This document shows positions 27,941 to 30,408 of a DNA stretch of 62,138 bases, piece by piece. Source of the DNA: Thermoflexibacter ruber (GTDB taxonomy: Bacteria; Bacteroidota; Bacteroidia; Cytophagales; Thermoflexibacteraceae); contig NZ_FONY01000033.1 of assembly GCF_900113045.1 (NCBI RefSeq), positions 1 to 62,138 of the forward strand, given 5' to 3'. Position 1 is the first letter of the stretch. Every line of letters starts with the position of its first letter. A program made the translations under genes and the position numbers. The notes below the pieces were generated by a model. That model was not told the DNA's origin. It ran no database searches and was given only the letters and a program-made list of their open reading frames with translations.

Positions 27941-29392
27941 TTAATCATGTAGATATGCTTCTGCTTCTATTTCTACCAAATACTCCTCACCAATGAGTTC
28001 TGCCTTAACCAAAGTATTGACAGGTCGAATATCTTTGAACCTTACCCCGTGTGCTTTGGCTACAGCTTCCCAATCATTGATGTTACGAATAAAAATACGT
28101 GTGCGAATGACATCTTCTAATTTACTTCCTAAGGATTGCAAAGCACCCTCTATTTTGTCTATGATAAAATGAGTTTGTGAGGCAGGGTCTTTGCCCCCAA
28201 TGACTTGATTCCCATGTGTAGCGGTAGTTCCTGAAACGACTATTCTGTTACCTTGTTTGATAGCGCGACAGTAACCTGCCATGTCCTCCCAAACAGTTCC
28301 ACTCATTACTTGAATACGTCCGTCTTTTCCTATCTTAGTGGTGTAGGGTAGGGGAGAGTCTTGCCCTATGTGATGACTTAAATCCCCTGAGGCAGTCAAG
28401 AAAGGAGGCTTTCTGTACTCGTCCCCACAATCCCCTGCAATTGGACGCAAGTTTTGCAATGTAGCTTCTATTTTTTGTTTTTCCTTTTCAGATAAAGTAT
28501 TTTCTAAAATTCGCAAGTTAGATTGGATATGCTCTCTTTGGCTCGGTCTTGCCCCGATGATAACTCCACCTACTCCCTCTTGCTCTAATATATAAAGGCT
28601 TGCTATGTTGGCTATATCCAAAGACTTGCCTCCAGCAATATCATCTAATACTTGAAGTAAATCTTGAAAATCTCCCCAACTTCCTGCTTGGTCTATGAAA
28701 CGCTTGTATTTCATTTCTGACCATGTAGAGAGCGTAGTACTGGTAGGTTCAGGTTTGTTTAGCCATTTTTCGCTCAAAAAGCCACCTGCTATTGTGCCAA
28801 AAGCCAATACTTTTACTCCATATTGCTGGCATAAACTTAACATTGTTTGTTTGGCTCTTTGGTCTAAAAGGGAGAAAGAAATTTGATTAGAAACAACTTG
28901 AATCCTGCTATCCAAGACCATTTTCAAATGTGCAGAATCAAAATTAGTCAAGCCAAGTTCGTTGATAAGTCCTTCTTTTTTAAGTTCTTGTAAATAAAAT
29001 AAGTGGTCTAACCAAACAGGATTGGCATAGTTCCACGCATGATATTGCAGTAGGTCTAACTGCTCCACCTGTAATCTTTTCAAAGAGGTTTGCACAGCCT
29101 CTCTTACCTCCTGCTTATTAAACCTACCTAACTGAGGCACCCATTTGGTTAGGAGTTGTATTTGATTTTTAGGAACATATTTTTTATGTAAAGTACCCGC
29201 AATGAGTTCGGCAGAGCCGTAGTGGTCTGCCATATCAAAGGTAGTAAGACCTGCCTCCACATAGGGAATCAAAGCCCGTGCTGCTTCATCTATGTCTAAC
29301 TTGTTGCCGTTTCGCTCCATGTCAGCGACTTGCCACAAGCCTGTAATTACATTAGAAATAGAAAGATGGGGGGATAGTGATGTGATTTTCAT
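27941..29392 (-). CDS. Fusion of aldo/keto reductase and RidA-like domain
   Basis: 483 residues. Residues 1-315 are an aldo/keto reductase with the full catalytic tetrad: Asp53 and Tyr58 (TFDMADHYGS), Lys83 (LLTKW) and His118 (LLQYHAWN). The cofactor-binding end contains GGVIIGARPSQREHIQSN. Residues about 355-483 form a YjgF/YER057c/UK114 (RidA) domain: GNRIVVSGTTATHG, VIRTRIFIRNINDWEAV and LIGEEYLVEIEAEAYL. The position of the Rid arginine (usual Pro-x-Arg) reads Pro-Val-Asn here, so the domain probably does not deaminate imines in the usual way. Substrate unknown. It is followed 49 bases upstream in the sequence order by no gene on its own strand other than the epimerase at 29464. Confidence 0.88.
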   Translation of the reverse strand: MKITSLSPHLSISNVITGLWQVADMERNGNKLDIDEAARALIPYVEAGLTTFDMADHYGSAELIAGTLHKKYVPKNQIQLLTKWVPQLGRFNKQEVREAVQTSLKRLQVEQLDLLQYHAWNYANPVWLDHLFYLQELKKEGLINELGLTNFDSAHLKMVLDSRIQVVSNQISFSLLDQRAKQTMLSLCQQYGVKVLAFGTIAGGFLSEKWLNKPEPTSTTLSTWSEMKYKRFIDQAGSWGDFQDLLQVLDDIAGGKSLDIANIASLYILEQEGVGGVIIGARPSQREHIQSNLRILENTLSEKEKQKIEATLQNLRPIAGDCGDEYRKPPFLTASGDLSHHIGQDSPLPYTTKIGKDGRIQVMSGTVWEDMAGYCRAIKQGNRIVVSGTTATHGNQVIGGKDPASQTHFIIDKIEGALQSLGSKLEDVIRTRIFIRNINDWEAVAKAHGVRFKDIRPVNTLVKAELIGEEYLVEIEAEAYLHD

Positions 29393-29463: not shown

Positions 29464-30408
29464 TTAATTTCCTTTCTCTATCTTATTTTTGAAGTACTCA
29501 TAGGTGAGCTTTAATCCTTCTGCTCTATCAACTTTTGGCTCCCACCCCAAAATTTCCCTTGCTTTGGTAATATCGGGACATCTTTGTTTAGGGTCATCTT
29601 GTGGGAGCGGGTGGTAAACCAATTTCTGCTTTGTACCTGTCAGTTTGATGATTTCTTCTCCAAACTCTTTGATAGTAATTTCACTTGGGTTGCCTATGTT
29701 CATAGGTAGGTGATAATCAGATAATAACAATCTATATATTCCATCAATAAGGTCATCTACATAGCAGAAAGAGCGGGTCTGGCTTCCATCTCCAAATACA
29801 GTCAAATCTTCTCCTCTAAGTGCCTGAGCCATAAACGCAGGAAGTACACGCCCATCGTCCAAACGCATACGAGGTCCGTAAGTATTGAAAATACGAACGA
29901 TACGCGTTTCTAAGTTATGATAGGTATGGTAAGCCATAGTAATTGCTTCTTGGAAACGCTTGGCTTCGTCATATACCCCTCTGGGTCCTACTGAGTTTAC
30001 GTTGCCCCAATATTCCTCTGATTGGGGGTGAACGTGAGGGTCGCCATATACCTCTGAGGTAGAAGCAACCAAGATACGTGCTTTCTTTTCTTTGGCAAGC
30101 CCTAAAAGATTATGCGTTCCCAAAGATCCTACTTTCAAGGTCTGAATAGGCATTTTGAGGTAATCTATAGGACTGGCTGGGGAGGCGAAGTGCAAGATGT
30201 AGTCCAATTTGCCCGCTACGTGAACAAATTTACTAACATCGTGATAGTAAAATTCAAATTCTTTAAGAGGGAATAGATGCTCTATGTTTTCTATATTCCC
30301 TGTAAGCAAGTTGTCCATGCCAACTACCTGATACCCTTCTTTAATAAATCTGTCGCAAAGATGAGAACCAAGAAACCCTGCCGCACCCGTGATGAGAACC
30401 CTTTTCAT
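29464..30408 (-). CDS. UDP-glucuronate decarboxylase (UDP-xylose synthase)-type epimerase
   Basis: 314 residues, normal for the UXS group of extended short-chain dehydrogenases. The NAD-binding [14 protein letters not shown], the [11 protein letters not shown] segment typical of [12 protein letters not shown], the catalytic Tyr-x3-Lys ([10 protein letters not shown]), and [21 protein letters not shown] are all present. It converts UDP-glucuronate to UDP-xylose for surface polysaccharide or glycoconjugate assembly in the cytoplasm. A dTDP-glucose dehydratase is less likely given the DDGRV and NLLTG segments. It may be co-transcribed with the downstream aldo/keto reductase fusion (71 bases apart). 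Confidence 0.88.

Follow-up and report, generated by a model that had tools for sequence, protein, structure and literature searches.

Known Rid and aldo/keto reductase proteins

RidA is the 2-iminobutanoate/2-iminopropanoate deaminase of family PF01042. In the plant enzyme the carboxylate of pyruvate is bound by R165 and T167, and in TdcF a cysteine occupies the Thr167 position, with loss of that contact (PMC4960622, excerpt). The Rid4 to Rid7 subfamilies are without the RidA arginine (PMC4433059, excerpt). In Rid5 and Rid6 the Arg105 position is variable, Glu120 is kept and Tyr17 is kept or replaced by Phe (PMC4433059 and PMC7221256, excerpts). Among these, the M. tuberculosis protein Rv2704 (PDB 3i7t) was noted as lacking Arg105 (PMC5038272, excerpt). 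The Arg-less subfamilies are described as being without RidA activity where tested (PMC4433059 and PMC9714295, excerpts), in line with the initial annotation of the present locus, which had such subfamilies doing other things, and the Arg-less proteins tested were reported to be without imine deaminase activity (PMC9714295, excerpt). The nicotine cluster of Agrobacterium tumefaciens S33 encodes a Rid6 protein that was predicted to remove an enamine or imine arising from the Pno reaction (PMC7688666, excerpt) and was later listed among characterised enzymes as a reactive imine deaminase (PMC8552603, excerpt).

Aldo/keto reductases (AKRs) share a barrel fold, and Asp-Tyr-Lys-His is the catalytic tetrad motif of the superfamily. 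Tas (1lqa), AKR11 (1pz1/1pyf), DepB (8hwn), MtmW (6ow0) and the Polaromonas AKR 4xk2 have both the barrel and the complete tetrad. Among the papers listed in searches of an open-licence library, none appeared to concern a fusion of an AKR with a Rid domain.

Gene, domains and predicted structure

The window analysed here is the whole 62,138-nucleotide stretch of Thermoflexibacter ruber DNA. On its minus strand, which also carries the other features of the window given below, an uninterrupted reading frame at 27941..29392 (ATG 29392-29390, stop 27943-27941) encodes a protein of 483 residues. Residues 15-310 (28463..29350) match the Pfam AKR family PF00248 (Aldo_ket_red; E 5.7e-56, 190.2 bits against a cutoff of 24). 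Residues 371-480 (27953..28282) match the Ribonuc_L-PSP family PF01042 (E 1.2e-20, 74.2 bits against a cutoff of 27.3), which places this part in the Rid (YjgF/YER057c/UK114) family. The RidA-type NCBIfam model TIGR00004 scored 42.2 bits, below its cutoff of 106.25, and none of the NCBIfam models listed for the protein reached its own cutoff.

The AKR tetrad consists of Asp53 (29234..29236), Tyr58 (29219..29221), Lys83 (29144..29146) and His118 (29039..29041). Each is present in 95/95 rows of an alignment of fusion proteins to which rows were added without a motif filter; L081, which holds an X, is included, and the rows comprise 94 distinct sequences, L008 and L060 being identical. The initial annotation had described a complete AKR tetrad joined to a Rid-type domain, and the two Pfam matches, the alignment and 80 further loci with the same architecture bear this out.

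A PDB sequence search returned 134 matches, and in each of the 60 of these that were listed the best stretch was confined to one domain. The closest solved relative of the Rid domain was 3i7t (residues 359-481, E 1.3e-19; 5.5e-40 in a profile search). The AKR structures named above, which are among the nearest, are 18-27% identical to the fusion. An AlphaFold monomer model, built from an input of 81 sequences from the window and the loci, had a mean pLDDT of 91.7 and a pTM of 0.92; we read the high pTM as suggesting that the AKR and Rid domains are confidently placed relative to each other. Superposition on AKR-fold structures gave Z scores of 27.4-31.2 and rmsd values of 2.2-3.6 over 267-321 aligned residues. 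The best 50 PDB rows from Foldseek and the 50 VIA-align rows were all AKR-fold chains; the Rid half is barely probed by these comparisons.

The Rid pocket

The initial annotation had noted that the usual Pro-x-Arg of RidA reads Pro-Val-Asn in this protein. The motif is Pro457-Val458-Asn459, and in an alignment with Rid paralogues of the host Asn459 (28016..28018) falls in the arginine column of L005 and L006, both of which have Pro-Ala-Arg, as had been read from the sequence. Outside the fusion, a third host paralogue (L007, G000:C66:89525-89866) has Pro-Ala-Asn instead of Pro-x-Arg. The conservation of the asparagine across homologous fusions, a check proposed at the outset, was complete: Asn459 is found in 95/95 fusion rows, which form 84 clusters at 90% identity and have a lowest pairwise identity of 46%. 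This rules out a quirk of the Thermoflexibacter ruber genome. The fusion scores below the TIGR00004 cutoff and has no arginine at RidA position 105, and identity as a classical RidA is rejected on these two grounds.

Standalone relatives of the Rid domain were compared at the same column, using 64 of 89 standalone matches from Bacteroidota genomes. They have Thr (39), Ala (15), Ser (9) or Asn (1) and never Arg; L116 is the one with Asn. Since 0/64 have the arginine, its loss is, on the sequences compared, a trait of the whole Rid group and not of the fusion. The initial description of a fusion without the Rid arginine thus holds for the absence itself and not for the absence as a feature of the fusion. 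What differs is that the 64 standalone relatives, which have no AKR domain, vary at this position, while the fusions have an invariant Asn.

Like RidA, the fusion belongs to PF01042 and keeps the Glu120 position, as Glu474 (27971..27973; 95/95 fused and 64/64 standalone sequences). It differs from RidA at both carboxylate-binding positions. Plant R165 and T167 correspond to Asn459 and residue 461, and the latter, also the position of the TdcF cysteine, is Leu in 65/95 and Met in 30/95 fusion rows. With Arg replaced by Asn and Thr by Leu or Met, the RidA carboxylate clamp is therefore gone. The group has further strongly kept residues: Arg376, Arg430, Arg432, His448 and Glu474 are each found in 95/95 fusions and, in that order, in 64, 63, 62, 63 and 64 of the 64 standalone relatives. 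L005 and L006 have Gln, Lys/Gln, Thr, Tyr and Glu at these positions. Strand alternation may place Arg376, Arg430 and Arg432 on the sheet face that Asn459 and Glu474 occupy.

The pattern agrees with the Rid5/Rid6 residue rules, with Asn459 at the variable Arg105 position, Glu474 at Glu120 and Tyr374 at Tyr17; position 374 is Phe in 57 and Tyr in 38 of the 95 fusion rows. Rv2704, the closest solved sequence, likewise keeps the Tyr/Phe and Glu and has lost Arg105. By these rules the Rid group of the fusion is a putative Rid6.

Residues peculiar to the fusions and the segment between the domains

Thr390, Asp412, Lys413, Thr460 and Gly468 are present in 95/95 fusions and are mixed or different in the standalone relatives. 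In a set of 94 rows, to which rows were added by the string GDCGDEY, mean conservation was 0.748 for the Rid part (358-481) and 0.686 for the AKR part (1-315).

The fusion differs from the known AKRs in carrying an extension, GDCGDEYRKPPFLTASGDLSHH, that leads into the Rid domain. No other stretch of 22 residues in the protein is as conserved as this inter-domain segment (residues 320-341, 28370..28435), with its invariant Cys322: across the 95 rows its mean column identity is 0.977, where the whole protein averages 0.706 and the best stretch elsewhere reaches 0.859. Such conservation would not be expected of a plain linker. The AlphaFold model is least sure in this region, with confidence values of 84 for residues 321-330, 63 for 331-340 and 68 for 341-350. 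The segment thus exceeds any stretch of equal length in either domain in conservation, yet the model is of low confidence from its residue 331 onwards. The plant AKR At2g27680 may share the motif GDCGDEYR.

It is conceivable, as a long shot, that residues 320-341 form a working arm that moves between the AKR site and the Asn-type Rid pocket and carries, covers or, through Cys322, covalently tethers a reactive intermediate with a C=N or carbonyl group on its way from one to the other. If so, the protein would be a new kind of coupled enzyme, and the Arg-less Rid group would gain its first assigned function.

Distribution and origin

The same two-domain protein was found at 80 loci of other genomes, with 57-72% identity. 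Because these loci are the top 80 out of 531 relatives, the list favours full-length matches. It was obtained with six seed peptides, two of which cover Asp53/Tyr58 and His118 and none Lys83, 320-341 or 457-460. By record titles the hosts are Bacteroidota, Proteobacteria, Chloroflexi, Acidobacteria, KSB1, Calditrichia and others, with many metagenome-assembled genomes. A chance or mis-assembled fusion is ruled out by the recurrence of the architecture. The fusion is a real, conserved enzyme architecture and a variant of known families, not a new kind of system. In a phage collection seven records matched, none of them over more than 80% of the protein.

The fused Rid domains form a single clade (FastTree support 0.93), with 0/64 standalone members inside it. 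The simplest history for such a tree would therefore be one fusion event followed by spread between bacterial phyla. Two genomes of the same genus, one of them 62% complete, gave no match to the fusion at E 1e-60, and Runella has it at 71-72% identity. This distribution suggests horizontal transfer.

Permease partner

A permease gene of the APC amino-acid family lies directly upstream of the fusion, on the same strand, in 67/81 loci, where adjacency was taken as an estimated end between an overlap of 80 bases and a gap of 300 bases. In 48 of the 67 pairs the estimated gap is at most 20 bases. A permease next door to every fusion is ruled out, as 14/81 loci fail this criterion. Four of them (L011, L016, L017 and L051) have a permease farther upstream within the locus, and ten (L013, L030, L043, L057, L059, L069, L071, L075, L080 and L085) have none in the available sequence. 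The upstream sequence is only 502 bases in L030, 920 in L059 and 262 in L075, and another reading frame occupies it in L030 and L059. By eye rather than by profile, genes of a branched-chain-type ABC importer were seen in L071 and L085, and downstream in L075.

No permease was found in the window; an epimerase-like gene (29464-30408) occupies the place where most relatives have one. The host does have a permease gene on another contig (C73), which matches PF13520 and is 56% identical. The fusion–permease pair thus appears to have been separated in the Thermoflexibacter ruber lineage.

Co-occurrence was assessed in three overlapping samples; in the large searches, scoring was limited to the top three or four first-look candidates of each genome. 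In the order sample of 390 genomes (E 1e-100), 30 have the fusion and 31 the permease, namely the same 30 and G536, and 359 have neither; these counts are not independent, because most of the positive genomes come from one family (f19), those outside it being the host (G000), G714, G536, G121 and G205. For both reasons the p-value obtained for the association calls for caution. In G536 the first 50 residues of the fusion directly follow the permease and the contig then ends. In 29/30 order genomes the fusion and permease genes adjoin each other on a single contig, the host being the exception, and one of the 31 permease matches, in G650, has an internal stop. In a phylum sample of 395 genomes the same five have both genes, as do the same two in a sample of 59 relatives.

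Peptidase-like genes were also seen near fusions, by eye and without a background control, and are given no weight here. For comparison, 20 regions were collected, of which three are fusions and one (L132) yielded nothing; among the neighbourhoods of the remaining 13 standalone Rid and three standalone AKR loci, no partner was common to all. Three of the standalone Rid loci (L122, L126 and L128, family f54) have phosphorylase-like and VOC-like neighbours in common, as judged by eye.

Alphaproteobacterial plasmid cassettes

A full-length fusion with 47-49% identity is present on 17 plasmid records, and 16 of these also have a second AKR and a TIGR04076 protein. Ten of the 17 regions were viewed, of which nine are annotated. 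Eight of the nine combine the fusion with an ABC importer of the branched-chain-amino-acid type, the second AKR and TIGR04076, and a GntR regulator is listed in seven of the eight. In the exception, a polar-amino-acid ABC importer adjoins the fusion. One cassette has a Leu/Ile/Val-type substrate-binding protein. The conserved cassette can be seen at L142:2017-10437, and also in L143, L145, L147, L148, L151, L152 and L154. In the literature found, TIGR04076 is named in a table. On an Ensifer adhaerens plasmid (NZ_CP101518.1:1681544-1682488) the match spans fusion residues 170-481 only and is possibly a truncated or broken copy.

Related cassettes occur apart from the fusion. A plasmid of Mesorhizobium sp. 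B1-1-8 (L146) has the importer, the second AKR, TIGR04076, DUF3830 and a pipecolate-oxidase-like FAD enzyme (296.6 bits, below the model cutoff of 600), with no fusion match on that plasmid. In genome G201 the second AKR (L134) adjoins a gene of the sarcosine/N-methyl-tryptophan oxidase family, which scored above its cutoff, and the fusion lies elsewhere in the same genome. No more than three such FAD amine-oxidase neighbours were noted (L134, L146 and, by eye, L086), without a background control. In other second-AKR regions, where the fusion is not nearby, the neighbours are a dipeptide ABC importer (Natronosalvus), a gene annotated as aspartate dehydrogenase with a branched-chain-type importer (a Paracoccaceae plasmid), an acyl-CoA dehydrogenase and a peptide-synthetase region (R. 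jaguaris), and membrane and other genes (G189, by eye); two further regions carry no annotation. A search of the host with the second AKR returned only the fusion itself and matches of 23-26% identity. A TIGR04076 search gave no match in the host and none in the control genomes either, so that the host may still encode such a protein.

Proposed function and alternatives

The fusion is inherited together with an amino-acid-type importer and therefore probably processes an imported nitrogen compound. Importer, regulator and redox enzymes side by side make up the arrangement of a pathway that degrades or salvages an amino-acid-like or amine compound after its uptake. The importer linkage is evidence of partnership and not of chemistry. 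As to the chemistry, the initial annotation had proposed that the Rid domain may hold a reactive carbonyl intermediate or pass it to the reductase, an idea close to the present reading; a C=N species would suit the neighbourhoods no less well. The Rid fold, the few amine-oxidase relatives and the lost clamp together suggest a C=N species without an alpha-carboxylate. The S33 nicotine-cluster Rid6 is a partial precedent, being a standalone protein, unlike the fusion.

On the reading that we favour, which we hold at about an even chance of being right, the protein is a bifunctional AKR–Rid enzyme that arose by one fusion event, spread across phyla and works on a compound delivered by an amino-acid-type importer. 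The fusion would be the enzymatic partner of that importer, in most of the genome loci an APC permease and on the alphaproteobacterial plasmids a branched-chain-type ABC importer. Its substrate would be what the importer brings in, an amino-acid-like or amine compound, or a product closely derived from that. The Rid domain would bind an imine or enamine without a RidA-type carboxylate and then hydrolyse or tautomerise it, and the AKR domain, in a linked step, would act with NADP(H) on the corresponding carbonyl or on the C=N bond. The invariant segment 320-341 would set the geometry between the two sites. The fusion itself, the tetrad, the invariant Asn, the single clade, the conserved segment between the domains, the importer linkage and the co-occurrence are observed; the single fusion event with its spread, the import of the substrate, its passage through a C=N state, and the sequence and coupling of the two steps are what we infer.

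Because Arg-less Rid proteins have been reported without imine deaminase activity, the Rid domain of the fusion may not be an imine hydrolase. It might be non-catalytic altogether, trimerising the enzyme or sensing a ligand while the AKR alone does the chemistry. Rid proteins are typically trimers (PMC4433059, excerpt), and the replacement of Arg105 by Asn and the reported inactivity of Arg-less proteins as imine deaminases (PMC9714295, excerpt) point the same way. Nevertheless, conservation at Asn459, Glu474, Arg376, Arg430 and Arg432 equals that of the AKR tetrad (95/95), the average conservation of the Rid part does not fall below that of the AKR part, and pure scaffolding does not by itself demand such constraint. 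We regard a non-catalytic Rid domain as rather unlikely. A classical RidA-type imine deamination, with another arginine in the role of Arg105, is highly improbable. In its favour, no fusion and hardly any standalone relative deviates at Arg376, Arg430 or Arg432, and strand parity could put these residues on the pocket side. Against it, both carboxylate-binding residues of plant RidA, the Arg and the Thr, are lost, and standalone relatives that share these three arginines match a group published as lacking RidA activity.

The amine-oxidase neighbours bear on the direction of the AKR step. Working oxidatively with NAD(P)+, the AKR could dehydrogenate an amine or amino alcohol after its import; the Rid domain would then hydrolyse the resulting imine, and the fusion would thereby take the place of the FAD amine oxidase of related cassettes. 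The Mesorhizobium cassette, with its pipecolate-oxidase-like enzyme and no fusion match on the plasmid, would fit such a replacement, as would the second AKR next to a sarcosine-oxidase-family enzyme in G201. These are two cases only, and G201 has both the oxidase and, elsewhere, the fusion, which is not a clean replacement. Moreover, to our knowledge the oxidation of amines by AKRs is not an established reaction. We regard an oxidative AKR as likewise rather unlikely, and the bifunctional enzyme acting on an imported compound is the reading carried forward here.

Significance

The activities of the Arg-less subfamilies Rid4 to Rid7 were called completely unknown in 2015 (PMC4433059, excerpt). 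The fusion supplies a named redox partner for an Arg-less Rid domain. The importer is present in 31/31 order genomes that have the fusion or its truncated start, and regulated cassettes containing the fusion are found on plasmids of rhizobia and marine bacteria. Together these turn the question of what Arg-less Rid proteins do into a short list of genes for a growth and metabolomics experiment.
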